DNA of 49,718 nt. Origin: a virus. Positions 5,247 through 47,936 of this stretch are shown here, piece after piece (within the stretch, counting starts at the first letter, position 1; each line of letters begins with the position of its first letter). A program made the position numbers and the translations under genes. The stretch covers positions 1 to 49,718 of IMG/VR virus record IMGVR_UViG_3300031749_000453; one strand, 5' to 3'. The notes under the pieces were generated by a model, which worked only from the letters and a program-made list of their open reading frames with translations, was not told the origin of the DNA and made no database searches.

Positions 5247-6140
5247 CTAGTCTCTCACGCCCGTAAGCTTGGCCAGGGCCTTGGTGGAGAAGAGCGCCAG
5301 GGAGACGTAGGCCTTGATCCGCGTGCGGTCGGCGTCCTTGGTCTCTAGGGGCCCGAGGCGCTGGATCTGGATAATCTGGTTCGGCGGCGCGCCACCGACG
5401 AGTCCGGCCAGGGCATCCTCGCCCATCCGAAAGGCATAGATCGTCGAGCAGTCGCTACTCGTCCCCACCGTCTTATTGTCGGAAATCCAATCGCTGACGG
5501 CGATCTGAATCCCGTCGTAGAAAGTGACCATCTCGCCGAATTGGTTGCGGTCGGTTTCGAGGATGTTGCCGCTGGAGGCCCGCAGTTGCTTCAGCTTCCG
5601 GCGGCTGCGCTTGCTCATCAGCAACAGGTCGGGCTTGCCGCCCTCCACTTGGTCGATGAGCTGGTCGAGAAAGGCCGTGGTCAGCGTGGCCCCATTGGCA
5701 CCGCTGCTGACGGTCTGGCCGGCGGCGCAGAGAAGGTCGATCCCGACGAACGAGTTAGACGTGCCGTCGCCGTTGATCAGGGTGTCTTCGAGCTTGTTCC
5801 GGACGGCCTTCGCCTTGAGTTGAATAATCGCCGCCTCGATATCCTGAACGTTCGAGCGGGTCTTGCGGATATACTCGTCGACGTCGGCATCGCCGCCCAG
5901 GATGGTCAGGGTGGCCGTGATCTGGGTGAAGGTGGGCGTGGACTCGGTCCAGGTGTCGCCCACTGCGTAGAAGGCCGCGGTCGCCGCGGCATTCTCGCGG
6001 TTGTAGGTTAGGGCGTTGCCGTTGATCTCGATCCATGGCAGCCTCTGCATCAAGGGGGAATCATAGATGATCTCCTCCATAACCCCCTTGACCACCAAGT
6101 CATTAGATAGTCTCGCCGCATCCGCTATGGTCAGTGCCAT
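5247..6140 (-). CDS. Major capsid protein (element B)
   Basis: A 297-residue HK97-fold-type capsid protein is predicted. Supporting features are the N-terminal ALTIADAARLSND, the YNRENAAATAAFYAVGDTW segment, the DVDEYIRKTRSNVQDIEAA spine-like helix, and the C-terminal LGPLETKDADRTRIKAYVSL, which matches the end of many phage capsid proteins. The ATG at 6140 has a strong AGGAGGTTCAGGTC ribosome binding site. It follows the scaffold gene and precedes the connector, the normal order for head genes. Confidence 0.85.
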   Translation of the reverse strand: MALTIADAARLSNDLVVKGVMEEIIYDSPLMQRLPWIEINGNALTYNRENAAATAAFYAVGDTWTESTPTFTQITATLTILGGDADVDEYIRKTRSNVQDIEAAIIQLKAKAVRNKLEDTLINGDGTSNSFVGIDLLCAAGQTVSSGANGATLTTAFLDQLIDQVEGGKPDLLLMSKRSRRKLKQLRASSGNILETDRNQFGEMVTFYDGIQIAVSDWISDNKTVGTSSDCSTIYAFRMGEDALAGLVGGAPPNQIIQIQRLGPLETKDADRTRIKAYVSLALFSTKALAKLTGVRD

Positions 6141-15936: not shown

Positions 15937-18900
15937 CAGTATGCCGCTCCCCACTGTGTGTTGCGTGAAATACCGACGTTCTGCCGGCCGATGTCCTCCA
16001 GCGCATCGCGGATCATCTGGACCAGATCGCGGTCGGAGCGAACAGAGCCCTCCACATTGACGTTCCCATTCCAGACCAAACCATTGCCGCCAACAGCTGG
16101 GATGGGCGGATTAAACTCGGGAAGCTCTGGTACAGCAGGCCCCTCCCACGGACCAAGTTGCGGTGATGGTAGGTTTGTCCACCGCAACTCCGCAATCGTG
16201 CCGAACTTTTGACCTCCTGGCAACGACCCGACCGTTCGGTTCCAGGCTTCAATCAGGCTGTTGACTGCCCGGATCACAGTATTCATGATGCCAACTACGG
16301 TCTCACCAAGCTTATTGAAAATCTCGGTCGCTCCTTGGAGCAACACATTGAACCAACCGAGAATGCCGTTCACCAGGTCCGGAATGATACTGTGGCCGAC
16401 GAGGGCATTCCAGAGACGGACGAACAGGTCCCCGATCGCCTTAACGGCGCCCCAAACCAGGCCAACAATCCAGGCCATCACCGTCACGAATGCTGACCAG
16501 ATAACGTTGAGCATGCGTAGCATCAGCTCCCCGTACGCCAACATCGAACCGTTGTTGCGCAGGTCATCCCAGGCCTTGCCCAGGTCATCGACAGCCTGCT
16601 GCAAGCTTCTCATCGGACCCTCGACCCAGGTCAGCGCCTCACTGAAACTCTGCAGGGTAGTGATCGGAATGGCAAAGGTTAGCGTCTGCGCGAGGCCCGT
16701 GACCCAGGTCAGCAGTTGAATCAGGAAGGCCAGTCCGCCGCCCGCGCCCCCACCCCCACCATTCACCCGGCCGATGGCATCGCCGAAGTCGTTCATCGCT
16801 TGCGTGAGTGCCGCCAGATTGCCTATGCCGGTCTCTTGAAAATCTCTTAGCCAGCCCTTCTTCTCCGTCCCAGCCCCCTCGTCCAGCCCTAGGTTGGTCC
16901 GTAGGCTCTTGACCACCTTGTCCGCCCCTTCCAGTTGGGACTTGAAGTTCTCTAAGGCGGTTTGCAAATCTTCAAAGAAGGGTTTTATCCGTTCTTCCAG
17001 GCTGGCCTTGAACGAATCCATGGAAGTCTTCCAATCCTCATACTTGCGTTTGGTCTCCGCTAACTGCTCGTCCAGGTCTGCCAACTGGTTACCTGATTCG
17101 CCCCACCCAGTCGCCGCATTCTTGGCCGCCGCCTCATTCGTTTTCTGGAGCTGCTCGGCCTTGCTGGCAATCTGGTCCAGGGCGCTGCCCCAATCACCGA
17201 GCTTGCCCTTGACGTCGTTGTAGGCACCCTGCAGGTCACCCAGCCGCTTCTGCTCGTCCTTGAACTGCTTCTGGAGGGCTTGGTACTTCGTCTGCAGTTC
17301 CTTCATTGCCGCGCTGTAGGCACTGGCGCTCTTCGCCGCACCGTGGAAGCCGGCCGACATCTCGTCGAGGGCCGCCCGTTGCGCCTTGAGGGTTTCCTGG
17401 GCGATGGTCAGGGCCGACTCCGCCCCCGTCAGTTGGGGTTGTAAACTGGCGATTTGCGCCTGAGCTGCTTTCACCCCAGCCACAATCTGGTCAAAGGGCA
17501 ATTCCTCCATCGGGTTCGCTAGTTGCTCGACCTGCCGGCGCAAGGGACCTAGTTGCAGCTGCTCGTCCAGTTGAACATTCTGGGCCTGTAGTTGCAGGTC
17601 CTCCAGGCGATCCTCCAGTTCCTTCATGGCTGCCGCAGGGGCATGAGCACGTTTGAGGTCGTTGAGTCGTCGCTGAACGCCGGCGATCTGCTGATTTAGC
17701 TCGAAGGCCCTGTCGGAAAAGGCCTTGGTCCCCTGAATCGGCGTCTGGGCAAACCGTTGCAGGCTGTTCTGCGCTTCAGTCAGGGCGTTCTGCAGGTCGC
17801 TGACCTGCGCCTGTGCCCGCTCTACGGCGTCTTCAAAGGGTTTCAACATGCGGCTGGTATCAAGGGCACTGGAGGCAAATCCGCTGCTGGCACTGCTGGC
17901 GTCCTCCTCCTGGTCTCGCAGCTCGTCCATCTGGTCATTGAGGTTTTCCATCTCCCCGCGAATGCCATCGACCACCGCCTGTTGCGCGTCGATGGCGTCA
18001 GAGAGGTTCAGTAGCTCGGCTTCTAGGCCCTGCACTGCCTCGGTCGCCGCTTGAAACGCGGCCGGCACGTCGACCCCGAAGACCGTCAGCGCTTTCATCT
18101 GCGTGGCCATGGTCGAGGCGTCGACCGCGGCCAGCCCCATGCGGACGGTATCGGCGAACATGCGCATGGCGTTGCTCGTGGTCATCAGGGGGCCGGTAAC
18201 CAACTCCATCTGCCCGTACTTGGCGACGATGCGGTCCACGCCCCAGTCCACCGACTCGACCAGCGAGGGCGAGTGCGTGGCGAAGGGGTTGAGATAGCTC
18301 AATGCTTCATAGATCATGCCCCCGATGGTCGTGACGATGGAGAGAACGATCGGCAGGTAGGTCATGAACGCCGAGGCAACCATCCTGATACCGTCGACCG
18401 CCAACGACGAAACGGCCGCCACCTTGGCCGCCCACTGCATGAACTGGTCAGAGGAGACGAAGGCGGCGATGGCCTGCGCGAGCTCCGAGAGGGCGGCGAA
18501 GAACGGCTGGAAGGCGGTCGAAACGCCGATCTTCAACGAGTCCCAGATGGTGCTCATCGCTCCCGAGAACGTCTTGGCCTGGTTAGCCATCATGCCGCCG
18601 TAGTTCTGTTGCACGAACGTACGGAAGGCAGCCATGAAGGTATCGGCCGATAGCTGACCTTTGTCTTGGAGATTCTGCAGCTCGCCAACCGCCTTGCCGG
18701 TCTGCGCGGCCATGGTCTCATAGACCTTGCCCAGGTTGACACCGGCTTCGGCAAGGACCATGGTGTCCTCTGCGGTGACCTTGCCCTTGGCCTGCATCTG
18801 ACCAAGCTGATAGATCATGCGCGTGATACCTTCGGAGCCGAGGCCGAGTGCCGCTGCCGCGTCGCCAATGTCCGTCAGGATAGGGATCACGTCCTTGGCG

Positions 18901-23450: not shown

Positions 23451-24626
23451 TTATGGACCAACTTGGGCATAACAGGCTCTCGGATCAAGCCTTGCGCCCC
23501 CGTGGACGCATCTCACCCGGTACTGGATGTCGTCATCCAAAAACGCCCCGCTGAACGGCGACATAGGTGCTCCGGTAACCGAAACCTTGTCGGAAGACCG
23601 CATCACGATCTCCGGGTTCTCGTAGCCGCGTAGGTAGTCGAGCTGAATCGCGGCGATGCGGCTAGGTTCAGCGAACAGGTACCAAGTTGTGTTCACGTTG
23701 CCCGAAACGTCGATCACCGGGAGAAGCGGATCGACGTGTAGCTGTAGCCCCATCTGCGGCAGGATGTTCGCGGTGGGCACCGGCACACCGCCCCCTGCAC
23801 CTACTTCTGTCCACTGCTTGAGCGTACTGGTCAGAATCGCCCGGGCCGTCAGCTCGAGAGCGGGCGGTACGACGAGGTGCGCGGCGCGGATGCCCAGCGG
23901 CTTGCCCTGTACGTCCTGCTGCTGGGCCATCAGGGTGATTGTAGTCTCTAGATTGCCAATAGTCAGCGGCAAGACGCCAAGGTTCGTGACGTTCGCTCCG
24001 TCAGCGGCGTCCACCACCGGTGCGCCGAAGAGGAGCGGGTTGGGGCCGGCGGCCGCAGCGTAGAGGGCCGTCACATTGTAGGCTTCGGTGTAGACCACCG
24101 CATCGGCAAAGCGCTGCGGCACATCCTGGAAGGCGCTTTGCACGTCGTTGACCATCGCCTCCCACGAGATGTCGAATTGTCCGCCGTACTTAAACAGCTG
24201 CCGGTGATAGTGCCCGTTGGCCACCACCTGAATCGGGTACGGCGCCCGTTCGGGAACGGCCGCCAAGAGTCCATCGTTGCCGACCACCTTATGTAGCTCG
24301 GCGACGTTGAAATTCGGTAGCGTCCCAACTTTGGTGTAGGCTCGCCACTCGGGGACGACCGCTTGGTAGCGCGCCAGCACGTCTCGCTCCAGGGTGAAAC
24401 CGAACAGGCTAGGGAAGTCGCTGCTGACCACCGACTCCCGTAGTTGAGCGGGCGGTTCACCGTGGACCCAGGCGCGGATAATCGCCTCCTGCTTCCAGCC
24501 GGGTAGGCGATAGCGGTTGCTCATCAAGTCAACCAAGACGCCCGAGGCCTCCAGCAAAGCGGTATTGGGTTTGGGCATGGACCGGTAGCCGGTCCAGTCA
24601 TCTATGGTGCGCAGTAGCTCTTTCAT
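23451..24626 (-). CDS. Major capsid protein (phage A)
   Basis: This 391-residue protein resembles the Mu-type/HK97-fold major head proteins: LLEASGVLVDLMSNRYRLPG near the start, FSLFGFT-like VSSDFPSLFGFTLERDVL, then KVVGNDGLLAAVPERAPYP and KYGGQFDISWEAMVNDV, and a C-terminal IAAIQLDYLRGYENPEIVM. It lies between the DUF2190-like gene and the connectors. Length suits a capsid without a fused protease. Start at 24626. Confidence 0.8.
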   Translation of the reverse strand: MKELLRTIDDWTGYRSMPKPNTALLEASGVLVDLMSNRYRLPGWKQEAIIRAWVHGEPPAQLRESVVSSDFPSLFGFTLERDVLARYQAVVPEWRAYTKVGTLPNFNVAELHKVVGNDGLLAAVPERAPYPIQVVANGHYHRQLFKYGGQFDISWEAMVNDVQSAFQDVPQRFADAVVYTEAYNVTALYAAAAGPNPLLFGAPVVDAADGANVTNLGVLPLTIGNLETTITLMAQQQDVQGKPLGIRAAHLVVPPALELTARAILTSTLKQWTEVGAGGGVPVPTANILPQMGLQLHVDPLLPVIDVSGNVNTTWYLFAEPSRIAAIQLDYLRGYENPEIVMRSSDKVSVTGAPMSPFSGAFLDDDIQYRVRCVHGGARLDPRACYAQVGP

Positions 24627-30645: not shown

Positions 30646-32355
30646 TCACCATCTCCCGTAGTCGCTGATTTGGCGGCGGTCCTCGTAGACCTCGACCTGC
30701 TCCTGCTGCCCGAGGAAGACGTAGTCCGGCGTCACCGCCAGGGCAAAGCCGTCGCCGTCGTCGGGAGAGCGGCCGACCCGCTGCTTGAACTGGTCCTTCG
30801 ACTCTAGCTTCTTGACCTGCACGCCGCGGAAGTTCGCCCAGCCGTAGATGCGCTCGCAGAGGTCCGTCTCCAGTTCGTCCGGCGGGTTCAGGAGGGCTAG
30901 CCCCTTTAGTGCCTCTCCGGCGGCGGCGTACATCTCCGTCGCCAGTTCGGCGTAGGCCTCCCACTCGTAGGGCGCGCCGTTGAAGTGGACCTCTAGCACG
31001 CTGAACTGGACGAAGGCCTGCACCAGAGCCAGGTCGTGGACCAACTGGTCGATCACCCCGCCGCCGAAGCCTCCGCCGCCGTCAACCCGGATCTGGATGG
31101 TCTCCACGCCCTGCTGGCGGAGCTGGAGGGCTTGCTGCTTGATCGTCAGGTAGTAGGCGAAGGTATCGAGTTGGGCGAACTGGGCGGCACGCCAGACCCG
31201 GCCGTTCCAGCGGACGTAGAGCGTGCCGAGGTCCTTGCCGTAGCGTGCGACGTCAACGCCCATGCTTGCTACCGCTGGGTTCTCCTTCAGGGGCAAGCGC
31301 TTGGTCGCCGCCTCATAGCGGCCAACCGGGATCATCGTGTTGTCGGCGATGTTCAGGGGCGCCACGCCCAGCACCCGGAACATGAACTCCGCATTGGGCT
31401 TGTAGATCACCCCCGGTCGCCAGAAGACCTCGAAGGTCTGGTCATCGGCACTGTGGTCGGATACCATTTCACAGTGCTTCTCGATCATCTCGTCCACGTA
31501 CTGGCGCTTCACCGCGCCCGGGATTACCTCCTGGCCCTCGATCACGTTAGGGTGCCAGAGGCAGGAGATGTGGAAATTTCTCACCGTCGAGAGTTCTCGT
31601 GTCTTGTGGAAACGGCTCGTGCGGGTCCGCGGGTTAGCCAGCATCAGGACGATGGAAATACCGCCCGAAGTCATGCCGTCCACGGCGTTGTAGACGAAAT
31701 CAGCCACGCCTTCCGCCTCGTCAAGAACAAACATCAGGTATCTCCCGTGCTGGCCCTGAATGCGTTCTGTGCCGCTCCCACCGGCGTTATTAGTCGCCCG
31801 GCCCTTGGCGAAATGGTTTGGCCCACGGTCAAGGGCCAGGTCGAGAATCCGCCCCGGCAATCCCTTGTCCAGGCGGTCGGCCTTGATCTCTTTCCAGAGC
31901 AGGTCATGGATCTGCTCCCATGAGGGCGCGAAGGTATAGATGATGCTCGGCACGAAGCAATCGAAAAAGTGGTTGACCAGACCGGCGGCGCATTTCGATT
32001 TGCCTACCGTGTGCCCCGACTCAACCCGGATGCGATTCTTGATCGTCTGGCCGGGCCGCCAGCAGGTGAGGTCCGCTTCGCTCAGCTCGCCCGCTTCATA
32101 GGCCGCCCGCTCGTGCTGCTGCCGGAGGGCGAGCACGTAAGCGTCGATGATTTCGGCCTGGCCTGGCCGCTCTGCACCATTACCACGCCAGGGTTCCCAG
32201 CCAAGCTTTTCCCGCATGTAGGCGATAGGGTCGTAGCGATAGACAGCTAGAGGATCTTGGTTACCCAATCCCCGCCGCCGCCGCTCTAATTCGGCTCGCG
32301 CTCTAAGCTGGATCAGCTCGCGCGCTGAGAAGGACCTTGATTGGGTCATCACCAT
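30646..32355 (-). CDS. terL: Terminase large subunit (phage A)
   Basis: This 569-residue packaging ATPase/nuclease has a variant Walker A, VESGHTVGKSK (residues about 111-121). Walker B is YLMFVLDEAEGV, and the coupling motif region is IVLMLANP. The nuclease domain shows SMGVDVARYGKD, IRVDGGGGFG and PDDGDGFALAV, three acidic sites of the RNase H fold. The start overlaps the small subunit gene by 53 bp. It cuts and pumps concatemeric DNA into the prohead at the portal. Confidence 0.9.
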   Translation of the reverse strand: MVMTQSRSFSARELIQLRARAELERRRRGLGNQDPLAVYRYDPIAYMREKLGWEPWRGNGAERPGQAEIIDAYVLALRQQHERAAYEAGELSEADLTCWRPGQTIKNRIRVESGHTVGKSKCAAGLVNHFFDCFVPSIIYTFAPSWEQIHDLLWKEIKADRLDKGLPGRILDLALDRGPNHFAKGRATNNAGGSGTERIQGQHGRYLMFVLDEAEGVADFVYNAVDGMTSGGISIVLMLANPRTRTSRFHKTRELSTVRNFHISCLWHPNVIEGQEVIPGAVKRQYVDEMIEKHCEMVSDHSADDQTFEVFWRPGVIYKPNAEFMFRVLGVAPLNIADNTMIPVGRYEAATKRLPLKENPAVASMGVDVARYGKDLGTLYVRWNGRVWRAAQFAQLDTFAYYLTIKQQALQLRQQGVETIQIRVDGGGGFGGGVIDQLVHDLALVQAFVQFSVLEVHFNGAPYEWEAYAELATEMYAAAGEALKGLALLNPPDELETDLCERIYGWANFRGVQVKKLESKDQFKQRVGRSPDDGDGFALAVTPDYVFLGQQEQVEVYEDRRQISDYGRW

Positions 32356-32704: not shown

Positions 32705-34019
32705 CGCTCAACCTCGGCTCCAACCCCATGTCTGCCATTCGCTGCAAACAGACTGCCACATACTTAGGCTCTATTTCCATGCCGTAGCAGACACGCCCAG
32801 TCTGCTCAGCGGCGACCATCGTCGTGCCGGAGCCGAGGAAAGGATCGTATATTAGTTCCCCAGCGAGGCTGGAGTTGCAAATCAGCCGCTCGATCAGAGC
32901 GACCGGTTTCATCGTCGGATGCATAGCCGAGACCTGCGGCCTATCGAATTCGAGCACGCTTGTTTGGAATCCCCCATAGAACTTATGACCCCCGTCCTTC
33001 CACGCGTACAGAATCGGCTCATGTTTGTAGGCATAATCCACACGGCCGAGAACGTGATTGTTCTTCAGCCATATCAGCTCATGGCGGGGCTCAATGCCAG
33101 CTCCCATCATCATCATCATCATCTGGTCACCGCCCTGCGGCATGAAACAGTACACTGCCGCGCCTGCATCCATAACTGCCGCCATTTCGTGGAATGCCAA
33201 CCTCCAGAGCGTCTGTACGCCCTCCTTCGTTCCGTGGTCTCCTGCTATCGGACTCTGAATACGATTGCCCGGGGCAATCGTATTCAGGAAGGCATTCTTA
33301 TCGGCGTACTCCACTCCATACGGAGGATCGGTGACCACCAATCGCGCCAACTTTCCGCCCATCAGCCGCGCCACGTCCTCAGCAGTCGTGCTATCCCCGC
33401 ACATCAGCCTATGCGCCTGTCCCGGCACCGTTTTGCTCGGTATCTCCCACAACTGCCCACGCTCGGTCTGCCATTTCTGCCGCAACTCCTCAGCCCGATC
33501 AACCTGCGGCCCGAGGTCCTCTGGCGCCTGTGCCTTGCCATACTCAAGCCCACTTTTCTCCGCCAGTTCCGCCAGCATCGTCTGGACCGCCTCATCGCCA
33601 GTCGAGACCTCGCGCAACAGTTCATCCAGCTTCCGACCATCCGCCGTGGCCATCGCTCCGATGGGATCAAGCGTTGCCAGTATCAGTTTTTCCTCGGCCT
33701 CCGACAGGTCAACCTGCATGTACGGCACCGGGGTGTCGTCCCCCTCCCTGAACGCCAGCTCCACCCGAAGATGGCCAACAATCAGGTTGCCAGTCCGGAC
33801 ATTCTCCACGACCTGCTGCACCCACCCGACCTCGGCCAGTACGCCGGTCAGCGCCTGCTGCTGCGCCTTCGCGTGTATCCGCCAGTTATTGGGGTTGGCC
33901 AGGAACTCAGACGCTGGCTTTACCCCATGGCCGACTATCCGGTTGCGCCAGGATGGCTCAGTTTGATTGCGTCGTTTGCGCCTCTGTAATTCTGTAATCT
34001 GAGACATTGTCATTCCCAT
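32697..34019 (-). CDS. ParB-like plus N4/N6 DNA methyltransferase fusion
   Basis: This is a protein of about 440 residues. The N-terminal 140 residues are ParB/Srx-like (NWRIHAKAQQQALTGVL, NLIVGHLRVELA). The methylase has VVTDPPYGVEY (catalytic motif IV), then YDPFLGSGTTMVAAEQTG (SAM-binding motif I), which is the order of the beta class. A run of six methionines lies between them. It should methylate phage or host DNA to evade restriction. It is the first gene after the late promoter/leader. The start is uncertain among ATGs at 34019, 34013 and 34007. Confidence 0.85.
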   Translation of the reverse strand: MGMTMSQITELQRRKRRNQTEPSWRNRIVGHGVKPASEFLANPNNWRIHAKAQQQALTGVLAEVGWVQQVVENVRTGNLIVGHLRVELAFREGDDTPVPYMQVDLSEAEEKLILATLDPIGAMATADGRKLDELLREVSTGDEAVQTMLAELAEKSGLEYGKAQAPEDLGPQVDRAEELRQKWQTERGQLWEIPSKTVPGQAHRLMCGDSTTAEDVARLMGGKLARLVVTDPPYGVEYADKNAFLNTIAPGNRIQSPIAGDHGTKEGVQTLWRLAFHEMAAVMDAGAAVYCFMPQGGDQMMMMMMGAGIEPRHELIWLKNNHVLGRVDYAYKHEPILYAWKDGGHKFYGGFQTSVLEFDRPQVSAMHPTMKPVALIERLICNSSLAGELIYDPFLGSGTTMVAAEQTGRVCYGMEIEPKYVAVCLQRMADMGLEPRLSDG

Positions 34020-34438: not shown

Positions 34439-34744
34439 TCATGGTCTCTCCAGTCTGGTTTCGGTAGGCTCGGGAGCCACGGGAAGTGCCCCGATTGCTC
34501 GAAGCGCTTCATCGACCGTTCTAACCACAGTTCCACTGCCGCGCCACTCTTGCCACCAGGCCCACTCGTCAGTGGTGAGCCTGCCTTTGGCGGTCTTGAT
34601 TTCCAGGACGTACGTTTGACCGCGGAAGCCCACGAGGAGATCGGGGCATCCGTGGCCAACCTCATAGAGCATGATCACTGAGGCCCCCACTTGTCGCAGC
34701 GCGGCGACGATCTCGCGCTGGTTGGTGTCTACCCGCTTAGGCAC
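34439..34744 (-). CDS. VRR-NUC domain nuclease
   Basis: This 101-residue protein matches stand-alone phage VRR-NUC proteins. REIVAALRQVGASVIMLYEV is followed by the active-site series GCPDLLVGF (Asp) and TYVLEIK (Glu-x-Lys), with a C-terminal helix WAWWQEWRG. The family cleaves branched DNA such as Holliday junctions, which helps prepare replicated DNA for packaging. Its start overlaps the preceding gene by 8 bp. Confidence 0.85.
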   Translation of the reverse strand: MPKRVDTNQREIVAALRQVGASVIMLYEVGHGCPDLLVGFRGQTYVLEIKTAKGRLTTDEWAWWQEWRGSGTVVRTVDEALRAIGALPVAPEPTETRLERP

Positions 34745-34979
34745 GGGCCAGTTCGCTCAGAGCGTTCTGAAGTGCCTCCAGCACCGTCGCCGCCTTGAAC
34801 ATCACCAACACCTCTTTTCTCTCCTGCGCATCGGCAATGATCTGTCCAACCGGCCCACCTCGCCAGAGCCGCTTCGTGCCAGTGCCCCACTTGCCGGGCA
34901 TTTTGAACACTACCACGGCATCAGAGCCGAGCAACGCGATTTGCCGTCTACAATGTTCGGCCATTGCCGCGAGCGTCAT
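34737..34979 (-). CDS. 80-residue early protein of unknown function
   Basis: The protein starts MTLAAMAEHCRRQIALLGSD and continues with a beta segment (AVVVFKMPGKWG), a basic loop and a C-terminal helix. The ATG at 34979 has a perfect AGGAGGAACTAAG ribosome binding site. It is the first gene after the repeat cluster at 35037-35166 and overlaps the VRR-NUC gene. No family is recognised. Confidence 0.6.
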   Translation of the reverse strand: MTLAAMAEHCRRQIALLGSDAVVVFKMPGKWGTGTKRLWRGGPVGQIIADAQERKEVLVMFKAATVLEALQNALSELARA

Positions 34980-35036
34980 CTTAGTTCCTCCTATACCTAG
35001 CCTTCACAAGTCGAAGGTGGATCGTCATCTGTTCTC

Positions 35037-35166
35037 CCCGAGTATGTGCAACGACATTAAAAGAGTTTCCGCTACCCGAGTATGTAAAACGACACTAAAA
35101 GAGTTTCCGCTACCCGAGTATGTAAAACGACATTAATAATTACTATATATGTCGTTTTACATACTC
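35037..35166. repeat. Iteron-like repeat cluster with AT-rich centre (candidate replication origin)
   Basis: A 38-bp unit (CCCGAGTATGTAAAACGACA, then TTAAAAGAGTTTCCGCTA with small changes) occurs at 35037-35074 and 35075-35112. A third copy, shortened to its first 24 bp, starts at 35113. An inverted copy of GAGTATGTAAAACGACAT lies at 35149-35166. Copy three and the inverted copy make an 18-bp perfect inverted repeat around 15 AT-only-but-one bases (35134-35148). The helicase stop codon lies inside the inverted copy. Direct and inverted iterons beside an AT-rich stretch, next to helicase and primase genes, suit an origin or a multi-site operator. Confidence 0.7.
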
Positions 35167-37211
35167 CCTTGACCCCGCCTCGGAACGATGCCTTTCGCCG
35201 GTTTCCCTTCTCCCCGAATCGGCAGAATATGAGCATCATCCGGCCATTGCCAGCGCTCCGGCTGGCTGTTCACCAAGTGAGAAAGATATTTGATTGCCGA
35301 GGGTCGACTTATCCCCAGCTCTCTCACAAGGTCTGCAGAGTAGAGCGGCAGTCGCTCTTGCAGGTAGAGCTCCGCCAGCGCCTCGACCTGTTCCCACTGA
35401 AACACATCTACACCCAAGGGCGCCCCCATGACTTCGCGCATTGACAGCAGTTCAGTTAGTGACAAGTCCCAGATCGGCAGGTTCTCCAGCAGCCACACGT
35501 CCACATCCCGAATGTTCAGCCGGGCCCGGTGGGCGGCCTGGATAATCTCGGCCTCTCGCAGCTGCCAAAGCACGGCGCTGAGTTCCGGGTCCGACCAGAA
35601 CCCGGCCATGGGATAGGTGCGGCCCTTTCCGTCCTCGGCAACGTAGTTGTACGACTTCTCGACGGTCGACCACGCCGTAGTGAAGGGTTCCATTCGCTCG
35701 AAGAAGATCATCTTGGCCATCTTTTCTAGCTGGAATAGTGGCGGTTGTGGGCTGCCGGCGACGATTAGCGCGTCCACATCCTCGAACCGGTTGGTACCCC
35801 GCTCGCCGTAGAAATGCCCGACGTCGGCGAACTCTCGGAACGGCGGCTCGGCGGCCTGGTGGGTGATCACTCCGACCCGTTGGTACCCCTGGTCCTGCAC
35901 GATCTTCTTCGCCACCTTGACGAGCTGCGTCAGCTTCGCAGTCGGCGTCGGTTCTCCGTCGGCCTCTTCCCGGAGCAACGTTCCTTTCCCGTTGGCACGG
36001 TCGTGAATCTGGAAGATCCGGCCCTTCATCTCGATCCGCGGGGAGAACACCTCGACGGGCCGGCCGAGAAGCGCCTCGTAGATCCTCTTAGTTCCCGTCC
36101 CGTCCAGCCACATCAAGTGTGTTGTGGCGGTGCGCCGGCTGAGCCGGTGACGCAGCAGGAGCAAGAGCTTGTGCTTCCCGACGACGATCCGGTGGGGGTA
36201 GTCCCGTCCCAAGCAGGCCGCGCATGCCTCTCGATAGAGCAACGGGAGGAACTGCTCCAGGTAGTCGTAGTCGAGGTTCTCCATGTAGTCGAGCTTCTCC
36301 CGGTTCATACGCTCGGGCTCCGTCAGGCTGCTGGCGGCCCCGGGTGCCGCCCACGGCTCAATAATCCGGCGCACCGCGTCAGCCCCGCCGATGACCATGA
36401 GCAACTCGGGCCCCTCCGCTACCGTGGTGCCTGTCTGGGCCAGCTCCTGCAGCCGCGCCAGTAGTGCCCACAGCTCCCGGTGCTCCGGGAAGCGCTTCGA
36501 CGGCAGGATGTGATGAGCAGGAATAACCTGCTCGTGGAGGAACGCCCCGATCGGTACCTCGTCACCGATCACCATGTGGAACGTGAAGGGGTGTGAGAGC
36601 GCCACGTGCTGATGCTGGCCGTAGATGATCGGTTGTGGAACGTGGTACTGCTCCAGGTAGTCGCAGGGCGTGTCAACGTCGCCCGGTCGAAGCCCACAAA
36701 CCCCGAGACAGAACGACGCCCCGTCGAAGCCCCGGGCGAGCCAGGTGGCGATCTGCTGGTGGTACCGGCAGGTGTGCTCGTCCCGCGGCAGCCACTCGTA
36801 GAACCACGCGATCGAATCCGGGTTGATCTTGTCTGCCTCGACTAGCACGTCGTTGTACAGAGCATGCCGCGGTCCCGCGTAGAGGACGCGCCGGCCCGCG
36901 CGCGCCAACTGGATCGCCAGGCGCACTGCGGCGTGGGTCTTGCCGATCCCGGGCGGTACCGTGGGGACTAAGGCGTAAATTGGTTGCGCCTCGTTCGCGT
37001 AGGCTAGCATCCTATGCCACAACTCCCTTCGGGCCTCGTCGACCGTGAGGCTCGGTTCCCGACTCCGGTCGGGCAGGTCGCAAATCCCTAGCCGTCGCCA
37101 GAGCGCCGATCTCTGCCAATCCGGCGGCTCCTCCGGCGTTCCCTCCGGGAGCGATAGATCCCCCCGCGGGCGCTCGAAGTGTCGCAATACATCCTCGAAC
37201 CCATCACGCAC
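35157..37211 (-). CDS. SF2-like helicase/ATPase
   Basis: This is a 684-residue protein. Walker A is LVPTVPPGIGKTHAAVRLA (residues about 82-100). A probable motif II is HMVIGDEVPIG (DEVP in place of DEAD). Motif VI-like IIQAAHRARLNIRD lies near residue 565. The C-terminus carries a helix-turn-helix-like segment (YSADLVRELGISRPSAIKYL). Cysteines around CRYHQQ and CGLRPGDVDTPC may bind metal. It overlaps the primase gene by 8 bp, so the two act together in phage replication. The variant motif II makes the exact family uncertain. Confidence 0.7.
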   Translation of the reverse strand: MRDGFEDVLRHFERPRGDLSLPEGTPEEPPDWQRSALWRRLGICDLPDRSREPSLTVDEARRELWHRMLAYANEAQPIYALVPTVPPGIGKTHAAVRLAIQLARAGRRVLYAGPRHALYNDVLVEADKINPDSIAWFYEWLPRDEHTCRYHQQIATWLARGFDGASFCLGVCGLRPGDVDTPCDYLEQYHVPQPIIYGQHQHVALSHPFTFHMVIGDEVPIGAFLHEQVIPAHHILPSKRFPEHRELWALLARLQELAQTGTTVAEGPELLMVIGGADAVRRIIEPWAAPGAASSLTEPERMNREKLDYMENLDYDYLEQFLPLLYREACAACLGRDYPHRIVVGKHKLLLLLRHRLSRRTATTHLMWLDGTGTKRIYEALLGRPVEVFSPRIEMKGRIFQIHDRANGKGTLLREEADGEPTPTAKLTQLVKVAKKIVQDQGYQRVGVITHQAAEPPFREFADVGHFYGERGTNRFEDVDALIVAGSPQPPLFQLEKMAKMIFFERMEPFTTAWSTVEKSYNYVAEDGKGRTYPMAGFWSDPELSAVLWQLREAEIIQAAHRARLNIRDVDVWLLENLPIWDLSLTELLSMREVMGAPLGVDVFQWEQVEALAELYLQERLPLYSADLVRELGISRPSAIKYLSHLVNSQPERWQWPDDAHILPIRGEGKPAKGIVPRRGQGSM

Positions 37212-38088
37212 TTTTCGCCTTCGTCGTCACTGCGTCGGCGAGATCGGCCTTCATTGGCGTTCCCGCGGGCCAACGGTAGAGCGTCACGTGGAGACCTGCG
37301 GTCAGCAGGTCGTTGGTGACCTTCACTCCGTTGGCCAGTCCCGCGTCGTCGTGGTCATAGACCACCAAGACCTGTTTGGGTTTCACCGCGGCGATCCTCT
37401 CGGTCCACCCTGGCAGCCACGTCGACGCCCCCTGCGAGCTCGCCACGGCGGGAATGTCCGGCCGGCGTTGCATCCAGAGCATCGCCGAGAACGGCGCTTC
37501 CGTGACGATCAGGCTGCAGCCACGGGTTAGCATTTCGGCGCCGAAGAGCGCGGGTTTGGATCCGGCCGACTGCAGCCACTTGGCGTCCGTGTCCTGCGGC
37601 AACACCGCTCGGCCCTTGAGCCCGACCAGCCGACCGTTCTCGTACACCGGGAGAATGATCCGCGGCAGGCGACACCGCGAAGCCGGCAGGACCCCATAGC
37701 CGATCCGCCAGCGGTCGATGGTGTCGCCGACGAAGCCGCGGTCCAGCAGGTAGTCCCAGGCGAAAGGCGGAATCGGCTGGAAACAGCGCGGGATCGACCG
37801 ATCCTGCTGCCAGCGAAACGAGAGGGCTGGCTTGGGCGACTTTGGTTTCGGCAGATCCCGGCCGTATCCGTCAATCAGTCTGAGGTGTTGGGCCAAACGC
37901 CTCAGACTGCCCTTCGCATCACAGGCAAAACACGCGAATCCGCGTTCCGAGAAGGAGAACGAACCGATGTGCCGGTCATCATGGTACGGGCACTGACACC
38001 AATACTCCCCCCGTCGGTCCGGCCAGAGCCGTGGGCTGATGGTTCGCTCGCGCTCGAAGTGGCGGATGATAGCGTCGAGCAGGTTCAT
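37204..38088 (-). CDS. DnaG-like primase (CHC2 zinc finger plus Toprim)
   Basis: This 294-residue protein is a short phage primase. The zinc finger is CQCPYHDD (residues 31-38) with GFACFACDAKG (50-60). The Toprim metal sites are LIVTEAPFSAM (Glu) and LVVYDHDDAG (Asp-x-Asp). PRIILPVYENGRLVGLKGRA matches the region before Toprim in DnaG-type enzymes. There is no helicase-binding C-terminal domain, so it probably relies on the neighbouring helicase. ATG at 38088. Confidence 0.9.
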   Translation of the reverse strand: MNLLDAIIRHFERERTISPRLWPDRRGEYWCQCPYHDDRHIGSFSFSERGFACFACDAKGSLRRLAQHLRLIDGYGRDLPKPKSPKPALSFRWQQDRSIPRCFQPIPPFAWDYLLDRGFVGDTIDRWRIGYGVLPASRCRLPRIILPVYENGRLVGLKGRAVLPQDTDAKWLQSAGSKPALFGAEMLTRGCSLIVTEAPFSAMLWMQRRPDIPAVASSQGASTWLPGWTERIAAVKPKQVLVVYDHDDAGLANGVKVTNDLLTAGLHVTLYRWPAGTPMKADLADAVTTKAKSA

Positions 38089-38266: not shown

Positions 38267-38745
38267 TTGAACTCTGGCTCGACCTTTTCCCCGGCCGCCA
38301 TCGCAACCTCCACCGCCTTTCGCAATACCCGCTGGTCTGTCGCGTCGTCGAAGGCGTTGTCGTCGGTCGCGTCGTGGTGGTCAGTCTGGACGCCAGAGCG
38401 GTCTAGCGCCTCGGCGAGTGCGGCCCTGATCCGCCATTCCTCAGCCCGCCGCTCGTCCTTGGCGTCCTCAAGGTCTGCCTCGACGGCAAGACAATCGGCT
38501 TCCATGTCCCGGACGTTCTTCAGCGCGTGCTGGTATTCGTCGTCGCAGGCGAGCGCCAACGTCAGTGCTCGCTGTCGGGTTTCAGTATTGCTGCCCAGGC
38601 CCTTGTCACCGCCGGCAGCTTCGGTAACTCGCGCCTCTGCCCTGGCCCTCGCCGTTTCCAACTCATCCCGGGCCATCTGCAGATTGATCCGCGCGCTCAC
38701 CACCTGATGCCGTAGATCCCTGATCCGCTTAAGCAACCTTTCCAT
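38248..38745 (-). CDS. Coiled-coil replication-associated protein with SSB-like acidic tip
   Basis: This 165-residue protein is almost wholly helical (LLKRIRDLRHQVVSARINLQ, then long Ala/Glu/Arg-rich helices). It ends in an acidic tail finishing EPEFNDDLPF. The last five residues mimic the conserved DDLPF-type C-terminal tip of bacterial SSB, which recruits primase, RecQ-family helicases and other partners. No OB fold is visible. ATG at 38745, AAGGAG ten bases upstream, inside the end of the ATPase gene. It lies between the RecA-fold ATPase and the primase. Confidence 0.6.
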   Translation of the reverse strand: MERLLKRIRDLRHQVVSARINLQMARDELETARARAEARVTEAAGGDKGLGSNTETRQRALTLALACDDEYQHALKNVRDMEADCLAVEADLEDAKDERRAEEWRIRAALAEALDRSGVQTDHHDATDDNAFDDATDQRVLRKAVEVAMAAGEKVEPEFNDDLPF

Positions 38746-39862
38746 CGGCCGCCTTCTCCTTGTCGTCGATTTTCCCCTTGAGGTAGTCGCTGAACTTCTC
38801 CAGTGTTTCTCTCGGGGCGTTTCCCAAAGGGGCGCTGTAGCTGAACTTGGCTGCCAGAGCCCTCTGGATCCAGTCATCCGAGACCCCAAGCCTTTTCTGG
38901 TAGCCGGCAATGAGGTCGAGGTAGTACTTGCGCTTCGCGTTCCCCATGATGTTCTCTGACTTTTTGTCGTCGACTTTCCCCTTCAGGTAGTCGTCGAACC
39001 GCACCAGCTCGGCATCAGACATTTCGTTGAGATCGGTTGGTACTCCTAATAGGTATGCGGTAGCATCGCTCATCCATTTGTCAGAGACGCCCCACTGCTT
39101 CTGGTTCTGGGCGATGCGGTCTAGGAGCTTCTGGCGCTCTGGGCTAATGAGCGGGTTGTTGGTGGCTGCCGGCGCTGCGCTAAGCCAGCCAAGGAGAATT
39201 TGCGCCAGATCCTTGCCCGGCTTGGGGATGACCTTGTCCGCAAGCGCGGGGCAACGCGTCTTGGAGATGACCATGTTGTGGTCGAGATCCATCTCACCCA
39301 CCACGTCATGCTCGTACTCTCCACCCTCCCGGGTGATTGGATTCATGCCGACCTTCTTGATGACCGTGTACCCGTTCTTGTCGATGGTCTGGATGTAGTC
39401 CATCTTCGAGCGGTACGTCACGAAGATGTGCATGTCGGCCTGGTGAATCGCCTCGATGAAGGCGTTGTGGAGGGGTGTCACGTCGGACCACGCTGCCCAG
39501 TTGTTCCCAGCCTTGTTCTTCTTCGCGAAGACGTCCAGCAGTTCCAAGCAGCCATTGTGCCCGGACCACTCGTGAGATGCCGAGTCGATGATCAGCCCGT
39601 CATAGCCTGCCATCTGGGCGCTCTTGATTGCTCCGATGTAGTTTTCCGGGTGAAAGTCGTTCAGCTCCAGGGTGTCGAAGTGGAATTGGTCGGCGTATTT
39701 GCTTAGCGAGCCGTGCTCCGTGTCGATCGCGGCGATCTTCTTGCACATCGCCGAGGCCAATGTGAGCGCCGTCCATGACTTGCCCGAGCCAGAGGGCCCC
39801 GAGATTGCCATCCGCAGCTTGGCGGCCGCCTTAGTTGCCTTGGTGAATTGGAAGTCAGCCAT
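38729..39862 (-). CDS. RecA-fold AAA ATPase (phage recombination/replication)
   Basis: This 377-residue protein has Walker A SGPSGSGKSWTAL (residues 21-33), IAAIDTEHGSLSKYAD after the first strand and Walker B GYDGLIIDSASHEWSG near 90. A RecA-like sensor region follows (MHIFVTYRSKMDY). This is the AAA_24-type phage ATPase often found beside recombination genes. The C-terminal 140 residues contain two related helical units, each ending in a SDYLKGKIDDK- or DDYLKGKVDDK-like sequence, an internal duplication. It probably loads or anneals single-stranded DNA. Confidence 0.75.
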   Translation of the reverse strand: MADFQFTKATKAAAKLRMAISGPSGSGKSWTALTLASAMCKKIAAIDTEHGSLSKYADQFHFDTLELNDFHPENYIGAIKSAQMAGYDGLIIDSASHEWSGHNGCLELLDVFAKKNKAGNNWAAWSDVTPLHNAFIEAIHQADMHIFVTYRSKMDYIQTIDKNGYTVIKKVGMNPITREGGEYEHDVVGEMDLDHNMVISKTRCPALADKVIPKPGKDLAQILLGWLSAAPAATNNPLISPERQKLLDRIAQNQKQWGVSDKWMSDATAYLLGVPTDLNEMSDAELVRFDDYLKGKVDDKKSENIMGNAKRKYYLDLIAGYQKRLGVSDDWIQRALAAKFSYSAPLGNAPRETLEKFSDYLKGKIDDKEKAADGKVA

Positions 39863-43636: not shown

Positions 43637-45238
43637 ATGACCACTGAGCGCGTGGCGGTCTACGTAAGGGTCTCCAGTGAAGACCAGAAGGAAGCGGGAA
43701 CCATTGAGAACCAGATCGACTTCGCCCGCCGCTACTGCGACCTGCACGACTTACCCGTCCACCAGGTCTATGCCGATGATGGGGTCAGCGGCACGGTGGC
43801 CGTGAGTGAGAGACCGGGCGGCCGGCGGCTGCTCAGCGATGCCAAGGCGGGGAAGTTTCAAGTCGTCCTGGTTCTGAAGATCGACCGGCTGGCCCGCTCT
43901 CTCTGGCACCTGCTGAACGTCTACAACGAGCTGTCCGAATGCGACGTCGGCATTTGCTCCATGACCGAGCCCCTCGATACCAGCTCGCCGATCGGGCGGT
44001 TCGTCTTCCAGCTCCTAGGCAGCATCGCCGAGCTGGAGAGAGCGACCATCATGGAACGGACCGCCTTGGGGCGGCTAAGGGCAGCCAGGTCCGGACGTTG
44101 GGCCGGCGGTCAGCCTCCGTTCGGCTACCGGCTCGAAGACAAGCGCCTCGTGGTAGATGACGCCGAAGCCGCCGTCGTCCGGCGCATCTTCCACCTCTGC
44201 GTCGACGAGGATATGGGGATCATCCCCATTGCCGAGCTCTTCAACGCCGAGGGTGTGCCAACGGTCTTTACCCACCGGGGGGTCAAGACGAGCCGCTGGC
44301 CAACCCAGGAGCACCGCTGGGACAACAGCGTGATCTCTCGCATGCTGGGCAATCCGATCTATACCGGAAGGTATGTCCTCGGCAAGAGCAGAGGTAAGGC
44401 CCTCGTCGAATGCGAAGCGCCAGCGATCGTCGACGCCGCGACCTTCGACGCCGCGCGCCGGCTGCTCAAAGAGCGCACCACCGAGGCCTCCCGCAATGCC
44501 CGGCGCCTCTACCTCCTACGCGGCCTAGTGAAGTGCCACTGTGGCCGGGCGATCGTGGGCAACGGCAACCACAAGCGCCATGCCTTCGAGTACGTCTGTC
44601 CGACGTGGAAGCACTTTCGCCTGCGGGCCGAGGTTCTCGAAGGGGCGGTCTGGGCCCATCTCGACGCGTGGGGCCGCAACCCCGGCCCGGCGATCGCCGA
44701 GCTGCATGAGCGACTTCGCGCCGAGGCGAAGGAACACATCGACGTTTCGCAGGAACTCGCGGACCTATCCGAGCAGATCGCCGCCAAGAAGGCCGAGCAG
44801 GACACCGTGATCACCCTCTTCCGCAAGGCGCGAATCACTGAGGCGCAGCTCGACAATCAGCTTGATGCACTCAACGTGGAACTCCGAGCCTTGGAGGCGC
44901 ACCAGAAGAGCCTGCTCGAGCGACAGGCCATCGCGCAGATGCAGGAGACGGCTCTCATCTCGGCAGAGGCGATCCTGATGCGGCTAGGGGAACGGTTAGA
45001 CGAGGCGCGAGACAGCCCTGAGCTGCAACGAGAGCTGATCAAGTGCCTCATCGCCAGCATGACGGTAGACCAAGACGGTTCTATCCACATCCGGTTTCGC
45101 TTCGCGGATTCCTCTGTAGAAACCTCGAGAATCAGGGAAAGGGTCGACAGCGCCCGGTTCAGCTCGCGTGCGGGCTCGAGGATCGGCGCCAGGTCGGAGA
45201 CGCCCCAGAACTGCTTGGGCTCCCGCAGGTTGGGGTAG
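43637..45238 (+). CDS. Large serine integrase, 3' end exchanged by integration
   Basis: This 533-residue enzyme has an N-terminal catalytic domain (AVYVRVSSEDQKEAGTIENQ with the active serine near residue 13, LKIDRLARSL near 75-84). Next are the recombinase domain (GGQPPFGYRL onward), a zinc ribbon (GLVKCHCGRAIVGNG, YVCPTW) and a coiled coil (about 370-450). It performs attP x attB recombination. Phage DNA ends at codon 497 (45127). The last 36 codons are antisense portal sequence of element B. In the excised circle codon 497 would be followed by the frame of the HTH gene at 7405-7731, giving 605 residues. ATG at 43637, GGGGGTGG seven bases upstream. Confidence 0.9.
   Translation: MTTERVAVYVRVSSEDQKEAGTIENQIDFARRYCDLHDLPVHQVYADDGVSGTVAVSERPGGRRLLSDAKAGKFQVVLVLKIDRLARSLWHLLNVYNELSECDVGICSMTEPLDTSSPIGRFVFQLLGSIAELERATIMERTALGRLRAARSGRWAGGQPPFGYRLEDKRLVVDDAEAAVVRRIFHLCVDEDMGIIPIAELFNAEGVPTVFTHRGVKTSRWPTQEHRWDNSVISRMLGNPIYTGRYVLGKSRGKALVECEAPAIVDAATFDAARRLLKERTTEASRNARRLYLLRGLVKCHCGRAIVGNGNHKRHAFEYVCPTWKHFRLRAEVLEGAVWAHLDAWGRNPGPAIAELHERLRAEAKEHIDVSQELADLSEQIAAKKAEQDTVITLFRKARITEAQLDNQLDALNVELRALEAHQKSLLERQAIAQMQETALISAEAILMRLGERLDEARDSPELQRELIKCLIASMTVDQDGSIHIRFRFADSSVETSRIRERVDSARFSSRAGSRIGARSETPQNCLGSRRLG
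45100..45150. other. attR: right junction of prophage A (core CTCG 45124-45127)
   Basis: Phage DNA ends and portal DNA resumes at CTCG. The phage-side half-site is CGGATTCCTCTGTA (45105-45118). With the half-site at 7410-7423 it rebuilds attP as an imperfect palindrome centred on the core. Integrase coding continues straight across the junction. Confidence 0.85.
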
Positions 45239-45879
45239 ACGACGAACGGGATGAAGCCGTAGGGATTGCGCCGCTGCCAGATCAGGTCGGGGCCGGCCCA
45301 TAGCTCGAACCGCTGCGCCGTCCAGCCCTCGGTGATCGTCACGTTGTCGGCCGTCGTTCGGTAGCGGTAGAGGCGTAGCGCCTCGTCCCTGTCCACCTGG
45401 TACCGCGAGGCCAGTTTCACCATCCGGCCGATGTCGTCACCGGCCCACCAGACGAAGATGCCCTGCATATCCGGCGCGGTAATGCGCACGCGCTTCTCCT
45501 CGGTATCCCAGATCACCTTGTAGCAGCCGTCCCCCAGCACCGCAGTGTCGATCTCGTTATCCAGGTCTAGTTGCGCCAGATTGTTTGCCTCGGCCACCTC
45601 GTAGAGGATGGCTTCGGCCTGTTGAGCGTCGGCACGTTCTAACGTTTGAACGTTGGAACGTTCTAACGGCACATCGACCGCCCAATTAACATCGGCCATC
45701 ACGTAGGAAGTCACCTTGTCGATCATGATCTTGGCGTAGTTGAAGGTGATCCGGCGCTCCCGCCGGCCCTGCCGCCCCGTCCACTGCGCACCTTTGTAGA
45801 AGTCCAGGTACTCGCGATAGCGCCGGAGCCGCCCGATATCCCGGTTTGCCACCTCTTCCGGCAACGTCTTGGCGTTCAA
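45124..45879 (-). pseudogene. Portal protein, N-terminal half (split by element A)
   Basis: These 252 codons are the N-terminal part of an SPP1 gp6-like portal: RYREYLDFYKGAQWTGRQGR, KIMIDKVTSYVMADVNWAVD, ILYEVAEANNLAQLDLDNEI, RRNPYGFIPFVVYPNLREPK and the last native residues LSTLSLILE. After that the frame reads about 85 nonsense codons antisense to the integrase. The TTG start at 45879 has a strong AAGGAGGG ribosome binding site. The C-terminal half is at 6819-7400. An expressed truncated portal could poison assembly of other phages, but this is speculation. Confidence 0.9.
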
Positions 45880-45951
45880 TGTGTATCCCTCCTTCCGCGA
45901 GGATTTAGGACCTCGGTCCTTCGCCTTGGTTTCTCCGTCCTAGCTTCTCTG

Positions 45952-47364
45952 TCACCGGTCCCAGGTCCGCGGCCCCAGGTCTCCGGGCAGCCCACCACTC
46001 CAGCCCTTGGCAAAGCGCGGGTGCATGCTGGCGGTGGCCTCGGCGACTAGGGCGAGGCTGGTCAGGAAATCGTCGTGGCCTTCCTGCGGGTCGACGTAAA
46101 AGTTCAGCGTCTGGTTGGGGCGGGTCTGGCTCTTGGCCCGGCGGCACTGGAACCAGAACTCGCGGTGCTCTTCGGAGCCGTCGTCGGCGTACATCTTCAG
46201 CCGGCCGCCGTTGAGCGCCGCCAGTAGCCCGAAGGCGAGCTTGCTCTTGCTCTGCTGGGTGAAGACATAGGGCACGACGGCCGACCCGAGCGCCTGCCGC
46301 AAGACCGAGGCGCAGGGGGCGCCGACGCCGGTAGCGTCGACGTAGACCCGCTTCACCCGCCAAACGTTCTTCAGCACGTCGATTAGTTGGGCGTAGAGCG
46401 CCGGGTGAGGCACGCCGGTGCGGTAGTAGTGGTCGACGATGCGCGCCCGTGGCGTGTTGACGATCGGGTCGGGCGGGTACTCCAACGCGGCGATGGTCAG
46501 CACCGTAGAGTCCTGCTGTGGCTTGGCCGACCGCAGGAGGGCGTCCTCCAGTTCTTCGTCCTCCCCCGCGAGGTCGAGGCCGGCTACATAGACCGTGTGG
46601 TCGTCGCCCGGCTGAAACTGGCGCGGGTGGTCGCCCCGTAGCTGCGCCAGTTGTTGTGCGGAAAGGAAGCCTCCGCCGCTGTGCAGGGGTTTCAGCTCGT
46701 ACTGGGTGGTGAAGAGCGGGTGGTCTGGCCCGAGCCGCTGCCGCTCGGCCTCCACATAGGCGGCATAGGCCGGGTTGTACTTGGCGACTTCCTGCCAGTC
46801 GTACTGGAAGTGGCGGCGGATGCCGTCCTTTCGCTCCAGTTCGAGGTTGAGTTGCTTTTGCTCTTCCAGCAGCGTCGAGTCGTCCCACGCCGTGCCGTAC
46901 ATCACCGTCGTGCAGTTGGTGGCGGAGCCCATCGGTCGGAAGTCCTTGCTGTACTTGTCCCTCCCCACATCTTGAGCCTCGTCCACCTCCAGAAGGATGT
47001 GTGCCGTGGCCCCCACGACGCTCGCCGTCGCGTCTGCAGAGAAGAAGACCGCCCGCGCCTTGCCCAGGCGGACCATGTAGCCCAGTTCTGCCCCCCAAAG
47101 CTTTCGGAGGCCGGCGTCGTTCAGCCGCTCCTTCAGCCGCAGCAGCGAGTTGACCGTCTGCGGTTTGAAGGTCGGCGAGCACTTCACGATATTCCCGCCC
47201 TTGAGCATGTGCGCGACCAGCAAGAAGACCTCCAATTGGGCGCTCAGCTCGTTCTTGCCCCCCTGCCGGCTGATCTCCACCGTGAAGGTGTGCCCTTGCC
47301 GCTGCCACACCGATTCGACAATCGCCCGCGCCACCGCCACCTGATAGGGCCTCAACTCGATCAT
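45952..47364 (-). CDS. terL: Terminase large subunit (element B)
   Basis: This 470-residue protein is a different terminase from that of phage A. Walker A-like VEISRQGGKNELSA (residues 30-43) is the SRQxGK(N/S)E form, and Walker B is HILLEVDEAQDVG. The nuclease sites are VYVAGLDLAGEDEE, RVYVDATGVGAP and EGHDDFLTSLAL. I chose the ATG at 47364. The open frame extends to 47445, but the extra residues read DPHPGPLFGREREKGSG, the translation of the upstream repeat. It precedes the split portal. Confidence 0.9.
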   Translation of the reverse strand: MIELRPYQVAVARAIVESVWQRQGHTFTVEISRQGGKNELSAQLEVFLLVAHMLKGGNIVKCSPTFKPQTVNSLLRLKERLNDAGLRKLWGAELGYMVRLGKARAVFFSADATASVVGATAHILLEVDEAQDVGRDKYSKDFRPMGSATNCTTVMYGTAWDDSTLLEEQKQLNLELERKDGIRRHFQYDWQEVAKYNPAYAAYVEAERQRLGPDHPLFTTQYELKPLHSGGGFLSAQQLAQLRGDHPRQFQPGDDHTVYVAGLDLAGEDEELEDALLRSAKPQQDSTVLTIAALEYPPDPIVNTPRARIVDHYYRTGVPHPALYAQLIDVLKNVWRVKRVYVDATGVGAPCASVLRQALGSAVVPYVFTQQSKSKLAFGLLAALNGGRLKMYADDGSEEHREFWFQCRRAKSQTRPNQTLNFYVDPQEGHDDFLTSLALVAEATASMHPRFAKGWSGGLPGDLGPRTWDR

Positions 47365-47375
47365 TCCCGACCCTT

Positions 47376-47475
47376 TCTCCCTCTCCCTGCCAAAGAGAGG
47401 GCCGGGGTGAGGGTCGAAAGACTGCTGTGACCGACCTACCCTCACCCTAACCCTCTCCCCTCCTGGGGAGAGGGG
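47376..47475. repeat. Inverted GC-rich interspersed repeat
   Basis: CCGGGGTGAGGGT (about 47403-47415) and its inverted relative ACCCTCACCCTAACCCTCTC (about 47438-47457) surround a short spacer, followed by CCCCTCCTGGGGAGAGGGG. It belongs to the class at 1751-1822 and 49603-49718. It separates the terminase gene from the small membrane-protein gene. Confidence 0.7.
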
Positions 47476-47845: not shown

Positions 47846-47936
47846 CCTGCGCCGCGATGGCAACTATCCTCTCCGCTGTTCAGGGGTCCCAAACCGCGAA
47901 CCGTCCCCACGGCAGGGCTGAAAGCAGCGCAATCCG

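Follow-up and report, generated by a model that had tools for sequence, protein, structure and literature searches.

In the iteron origins of plasmids and lambdoid phages, the initiator gene is close to repeats that adjoin an AT-rich stretch. The solved DinG, CasDinG and XPD helicases among the structural matches listed in this work act in repair, transcription and CRISPR, and to our knowledge this helicase class is not known as a replication initiator. In the SaPI rep-ori, and in SCCmec with Cch2 and its putative origin, the initiator helicase uses its C-terminal domain to recognise repeats that immediately follow its own gene; in SCCmec, binding required direct repeats and not inverted repeats (PMC7581432). 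In herpes simplex virus, OriS consists of inverted boxes around an AT-rich spacer and is bound by UL9, an SF2 helicase with a C-terminal DNA-binding domain, and the genome carries three origins (PMC12543377).

The window analysed in this study is the whole stretch of an IMG/VR virus record, 49,718 bases long. On its minus strand an AAA_24/Sak4-like ATPase, a DnaG-like primase and a 684-aa protein are followed by a cluster of repeats (Table 1). Past the repeats come ORFs for an 80-aa protein and a nuclease-like protein, then a methyltransferase that includes a ParB-like stretch, a small ORF resembling HTH proteins, the large terminase (TerL, 30646-32355) and head genes. An Rfam scan at gathering scores and a tRNA search of the window found nothing. 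A 15-codon ORF on the minus strand (34981-35028, ATG at 35028) reaches from the end of the repeats almost to the 80-aa ORF, stopping one base short of its start, and by eye GGAGG lies within its last codons. The methyltransferase ORF contains a perfect palindrome with 16-bp arms and a 1-bp centre (33255-33287). Farther away, in the region 43637-47445, the 3' end of a plus-strand serine recombinase gene overlaps an SPP1-portal-like ORF (44857-45879, minus strand, Pfam match below cut-off), which is adjoined by a terminase-like ORF (45952-47445, minus strand) in addition to the large terminase named above. This region possibly represents two adjacent phages, or a phage that has inserted into the portal gene of another.

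The 17-mer GAGTATGTAAAACGACA is present in the cluster as two direct copies and one inverted copy, all exact, as a sequence-only reading of this DNA had listed them. The copy which that reading took for truncated, GAGTATGTGCAACGACA, is of full length and has two mismatches. These four copies are all of the matches in the window at up to three mismatches, where 0.02 are expected, and 0 of 100 shuffles reached four. The direct copies are held in 38-bp units that begin at 35034, 35072 and 35110; the first and second are 89% alike, and the third agrees with the first at 68% of the 38 bp, its last part being divergent. Direct copy 3 and its inverted counterpart together form an inverted repeat with perfect 18-bp arms, as had been claimed. 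Its 15-bp spacer (35134-35148) had been described as all AT, and 14 of the 15 bases are A or T, with a single C. This is the highest-scoring palindrome of the window (score 18, against a maximum of 15 in 30 Markov randomisations). The AT island does stand out: the maximum AT content per 51 bp is 74.5%, reached by six tied stretches, five at the repeat cluster and one at 48247. Each arm of the palindrome contains ATGT-N6-ACAT or a near form, and the exact form occurs three times in the window, always at the repeat cluster (0.24 expected). The TAA stop codon of the gene for the 684-aa protein falls within the inverted copy. This overlap had been read as a sign of non-coding selection; it is insufficient for that when taken alone, and the case is supplied by the relatives described below.

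Table 1. Coordinates of the features around the repeat cluster in the window and of the palindromes at the helicase stop codon in related records.
Record	Feature	Coordinates	Strand	Remarks
Window	Small nuclease-like ORF	34439..34744	-	PHROG endonuclease / Holliday junction resolvase
Window	80-aa ORF downstream of repeats, no family	34737..34979	-	
Window	Three 38-bp tandem units, third diverging in last part	35034..35147	+	
Window	Direct 17-bp copy 1	35040..35056	+	two mismatches
Window	Direct 17-bp copy 2	35078..35094	+	exact match
Window	Direct 17-bp copy 3, left arm of palindrome	35116..35132	+	exact match
Window	AT-centred palindrome, proposed initiator-binding sites and DNA-unwinding element	35116..35166	.	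same arrangement in 5/5 other distinct records past helicase stop
Window	Inverted 17-bp copy, holds helicase stop codon 35157-35159	35150..35166	-	exact match
Window	DinG/XPD-like SF2 helicase (modelled), 684 aa, Walker A residue 88, C-terminal winged helix	35157..37211	-	model and sequence
Window	Helicase winged-helix core, residues 603-649, proposed arm binder	35265..35405	-	model; presumed binding
Window	DnaG-like primase	37204..38088	-	CHC2 zinc ribbon and DNAG_N below Pfam cut-off; PHROG DNA primase
Window	AAA_24 / Sak4-like ATPase, replication-recombination module	38729..39862	-	
G001	Palindrome at helicase stop	47847-47905		
G002	Palindrome at helicase stop	12415-12473		
G003	Palindrome at helicase stop	18792-18841		21-bp perfect arms
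G014	Palindrome at helicase stop	5703-5762		19-bp perfect arms, 22-bp A/T-rich centre
G016	Palindrome at helicase stop	4969-5019		arms with indel

A scan with the primase led to one distant record, G001, in which a helicase homologue is followed by a palindrome of other letters, and alignment-based scans led to seven more (G002, G003, G004, G005, G014, G015 and G016). The helicases of these IMG/VR relatives are 34-39% identical to that of the window. G015 is a near-copy of G014 (99.996% over 24,001 bases); it was left out of the counts of six and of eight given here and kept in the searches for protein families in nine records. G004 and G005 stop short of the helicase stop codon and were excluded from the palindrome count, which reduces the eight distinct records to six. 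No match was obtained when the window helicase was searched in phages by tblastn, when single helicase sequences were scanned against viral and genome contigs, when the helicase alignment was scanned against genome contigs, or when the AAA_24 protein was scanned against viral contigs.

An AT-centred palindrome lies at the helicase stop codon in all six distinct records that reach past it, the window and five relatives (Table 1). The stop codon is within the palindrome in four of them (window, G003, G014 and G016), the palindrome of G002 begins six bases past the stop, and the helicase reading frame of G001 crosses the palindrome and ends about 20 bases beyond it. The letters of the arms are largely unrelated among the six, with a partial core common to G001 and G003; by eye, CCTATA at the edge of the centre is common to G001, G002, G003 and G016. 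The gene downstream is an 80-aa ORF in the window, a 180-aa ORF in G014 and a ResIII-type helicase in four records. Since this gene differs, the element goes with the helicase. Tandem copies of the arm were seen in none of the five relatives. The direct repeats, which had been put forward as iterons, therefore look like a local 38-bp tandem duplication in the window.

Further palindromes are present in two of the relatives. Those of G001 lie after the primase (45009-45061) and after the capsid gene (24228-24277), the latter with arms that are only partly alike. Those of G002 lie in a gap between divergent genes (44938-44980) and behind an ORF that belongs to no Pfam family (59509-59553), and the palindrome copies within this record have similar arms. 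These extra palindromes may be additional origins; the operator, RNA and mobile-element readings weighed below would account for them too. A third match to the G003 arm, with three mismatches and in apparent coding sequence, was taken as chance. Outer flanks of the palindromes carry a motif similar to GTGTAAAGCG, on both sides in G002 (12.4, 44.9 and 59.5 kb) and on one side in G003 (G003:18770) and G016 (G016:4947); it is perhaps a second binding site. In G004 and G005 the helicase contigs break off no more than roughly 250 bases short of where the palindrome would be expected. The G005 contig opens with a perfect 22-bp inverted repeat (G005:1-55) that resembles an assembly artefact.

Gapped palindromes were scored in 150-bp blocks of each record separately. 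The block at the helicase stop ranked 1 of 330 in the window, 2 of 335 in G001, 2 of 465 in G002, 1 of 322 in G003, 1 of 340 in G014 and 3 of 122 in G016. The block ahead of it in G001 is the sister copy at 45 kb, and the one ahead in G002, at 24.7 kb, holds an inverted repeat of another kind. Two blocks of G016 score higher, at 8.5 and 8.6 kb, and the second of these immediately precedes a GIY-YIG gene. The window had prompted the hypothesis, so the other five records are the cases independent of it; the six helicases are related, and the cases are not fully independent of each other.

Loci related by the terminase were used as a control. The window TerL is more than 50% identical to proteins in 26 viral loci (L014-L039), of which three have methyltransferase matches and one a short TerS match. 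These loci are partial records, and tblastn with the window helicase was used to look for homologues in them. No AT-centred palindrome reached the threshold in the 26 loci (363 kb), compared with 10 in the eight helicase-bearing records (360 kb), under an AT-centre criterion that was fixed only after the first cases had been seen. The base composition of the two sets is similar (AT 0.416 and 0.405, respectively). Strong palindromes with any centre numbered 20 in the terminase-related and 22 in the helicase-bearing set at score 14, and 6 and 9 at score 17. They are thus equally common in both sets, and the contrast rests on the AT centre. The ten AT-centred palindromes comprise five linked to the helicase, three further copies (G001 45009 and 24228; G002 44938) and two others; the ungapped threshold of this control misses the G016 palindrome at the helicase stop as well as one of the copies in G002. 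One of the two others is unexplained (G004:3422). The other lies before a GIY-YIG gene (G014:24935) and is probably of another kind. Palindromes immediately before GIY-YIG/NUMOD3 genes (Pfam) are present at G014:24935-24981 and at G016:8596-8667, and by eye one arm of the former would cover the likely ribosome-binding site. In T4 homing endonucleases, a hairpin arm covers the ribosome-binding site.

These comparisons suggest that replication and packaging modules are exchanged separately, because TerL is widely shared and the window helicase was found in 0 of the 8 records of TerL relatives that were searched whole.

The 684-aa protein gave only sub-threshold matches in Pfam, none in PHROGs to E 0.001 and only weak matches among PDB sequences. 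It was modelled, from six helicase sequences over its whole length (pLDDT 71.8), as a DinG/XPD-type SF2 helicase with a two-lobe motor. The first Foldseek matches of the model were DinG, CasDinG and XPD (E 2.5e-11; TM 0.39-0.42 for the DinG entries, a loose fit), and VIA gave Z 20.9 and rmsd 5.4 over 448 aligned residues at 12% identity. Four cysteines between Walker A and B (C148, C168, C172 and C183) are invariant in 8 of 8 helicases. We take this arrangement to be the iron-sulfur domain of the DinG/XPD family, and we infer that the four cysteines bind an iron-sulfur cluster. The last 100 residues, modelled separately (pLDDT 83), form a predicted winged helix. This fit is modest in Foldseek (best E 0.04, none at E <=0.001), and the best VIA match has Z 8.4 and rmsd 1.7 over 69 residues. 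Among the matches listed are BrxR, CapW, ArsR- and MarR-like regulators, Z-alpha domains and a ribosomal protein, and many of them are ribosomal or Z-DNA/RNA-binding domains. The models thus support both the helicase fold and the winged helix, and the latter could bind the arms of the palindrome.

The other replication genes of these phages were also compared. A DnaG-like primase is present in all six records with a complete helicase, and no match was listed for G004 and G005. A second helicase, of the ResIII type, is present in five of these six and absent from the window. DnaB_C was above cut-off in 0 of 9 records, and its three weak matches lie within the Walker A stretch of the helicase itself. 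DNA_pol_A was found in 0 of 8 records, which may be incomplete.

We lean, with some caution, towards the reading that the palindrome and the two extra direct copies are the cognate replication origin of the candidate initiator helicase whose gene ends there. This reading is favoured because the palindrome is kept at the helicase stop in six of six records and because the helicase carries a modelled winged helix. An origin beside the helicase had been suggested from the direct repeats; it is still the best-supported reading, and its ground is now the conserved AT-centred palindrome. In the mechanism that we infer, dimers of the DinG/XPD-like helicase would bind both arms via their C-terminal winged helices. 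The AT-rich centre would melt, or the palindrome would extrude a hairpin, and the helicase would load onto the opened strands. The phage DnaG-like primase would lay the primers for initiation, and the polymerase would come from the host. Against an origin stand the cumulative GC skew of the window, which has no turn at 35 kb, the further palindromes elsewhere in G001 and G002, the restriction of the tandem copies to the window, the indel and third rank of the G016 palindrome, the modest winged-helix and loose whole-helicase matches, and the SCCmec precedent, where direct repeats were the ones required for binding.

The palindrome could instead act as an RNA hairpin that closes the helicase transcript at its 3' end, with a role in transcript ending, processing or stability. 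Each of the 10 palindromes for which folding was computed would give a stable RNA hairpin (-17.9 to -35.6 kcal/mol), and most of them lie at or just past a stop codon between genes of the same direction. However, no U-tract is present, and a scan of 34700-35500 gave no terminator at the palindrome. Broken arm pairs, of which there are few cases, do not clearly favour sense-strand G-U over A-C, divergent genes flank one of the G002 copies, and an RNA stem would not need an AT-rich centre. We therefore regard a role in RNA as unlikely, although it deserves attention. A role as an operator is a somewhat weaker candidate. Here a phage regulator, perhaps the helicase itself, would bind the arms and control the operon, which would agree with the ATGT-N6-ACAT motif, with the likeness of the arms within G002 and with a good -35/-10 pair seen by eye just downstream of the G001 palindrome. 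However, no sigma-70-like promoter was found at 34700-35500, the element accompanies the helicase whichever gene comes next, and the repressor-like HTH gene at 41 kb has no copy in its vicinity.

It is improbable that the palindrome is a mobile element of the REP/MITE type that settles at gene ends. The extra copies of G001 and G002 at unrelated places would fit such an element, but the palindrome occupies the homologous spot in six of six records with letters that are largely unrelated. A search for the repeat in phages, as had been recommended, returned nothing: blastn had no matches for the window element in phages and plasmids or for the G001 element in phages. The exact arm pattern was matched once each in 9 viral contigs, within the stretch covered, and these matches were treated as chance. 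A loxP-like site for a tyrosine recombinase is highly improbable, although the palindromes of G002, G003 and G016 have inverted arms around an asymmetric spacer of 7-9 bp and two of these three records (G003 and G016) carry a Phage_integrase gene. This gene was found in only 2 of 9 records, which may be incomplete, and not in the window, G001 or G002, and the spacers are 15 bp in the window and 22 bp in G014.

Narrower candidates were also set aside. An intrinsic terminator was rejected for want of a U-tract, the sole terminator-like site in 34700-35500 being at 35410-35423. An operator of the phage repressor near 41 kb was rejected since no other match is present in the window at <=3 mismatches. 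Iterons proper ranked low, as tandem copies occur in the window only.

A wider proposal is possible but more doubtful than the origin reading itself. An iron-sulfur helicase of the DinG/XPD type with a C-terminal winged helix may represent a new kind of initiator. Its origin, palindromic and AT-centred, would be the one in which its own gene ends, and some genomes would have further origins. Gene and origin would then evolve together, with arm letters free to change while the symmetry is kept, a bacterial parallel to UL9 and OriS of herpesviruses. A literature search, mostly outside subscription journals, on inverted-repeat phage origins next to a helicase, UL9-type origins, DinG helicases of phages and DinG initiators with a winged helix listed no description of such an arrangement. 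If the proposal is true, DinG/XPD joins the helicase classes able to act as replication initiators, and a route to the start of replication is suggested for phages whose records showed no DnaB-type helicase. The six diverged pairs of helicase and palindrome would allow DNA specificity to be followed, and a palindrome at the helicase stop codon would be a simple marker of origins in uncultivated phages.

Compared with iteron origins, the window likewise has repeats beside an AT-rich stretch near a candidate initiator gene. However, its three direct copies, 38 bp apart, are present in the window only, and the relatives have just the inverted pair. The inverted arms around an AT-rich spacer in the window and its relatives are like HSV OriS. 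In OriS, Box 3 is inverted to Box 1, whereas the extra copies of the window are direct to the left arm. The host and the C-terminal domain of the window helicase differ from those of UL9, and we claim no homology; UL9 was absent among the listed fold matches, which does not amount to exclusion. With DinG, CasDinG and XPD the window helicase shares the modelled motor fold and the four conserved cysteines between Walker A and B. It differs from them in its C-terminal winged helix and in being linked to a palindrome and to the primase gene of a phage. Like the SaPI rep-ori, the locus has a repeat element at the 3' end of a helicase gene, here as a candidate origin. The helicases of SaPI and SCC are of the DUF927 and Primase_Cterm families and that of the window is DinG/XPD-like; among the matches listed, its best structural matches are DinG/XPD. 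SaPI and SCC have short direct iterons, whereas the conserved element here is an inverted repeat around an AT centre. The principle of an origin at the end of a gene is already known from such systems, and what is new here is a putative origin at the 3' end of a candidate initiator-helicase gene, with a helicase of the DinG/XPD class.
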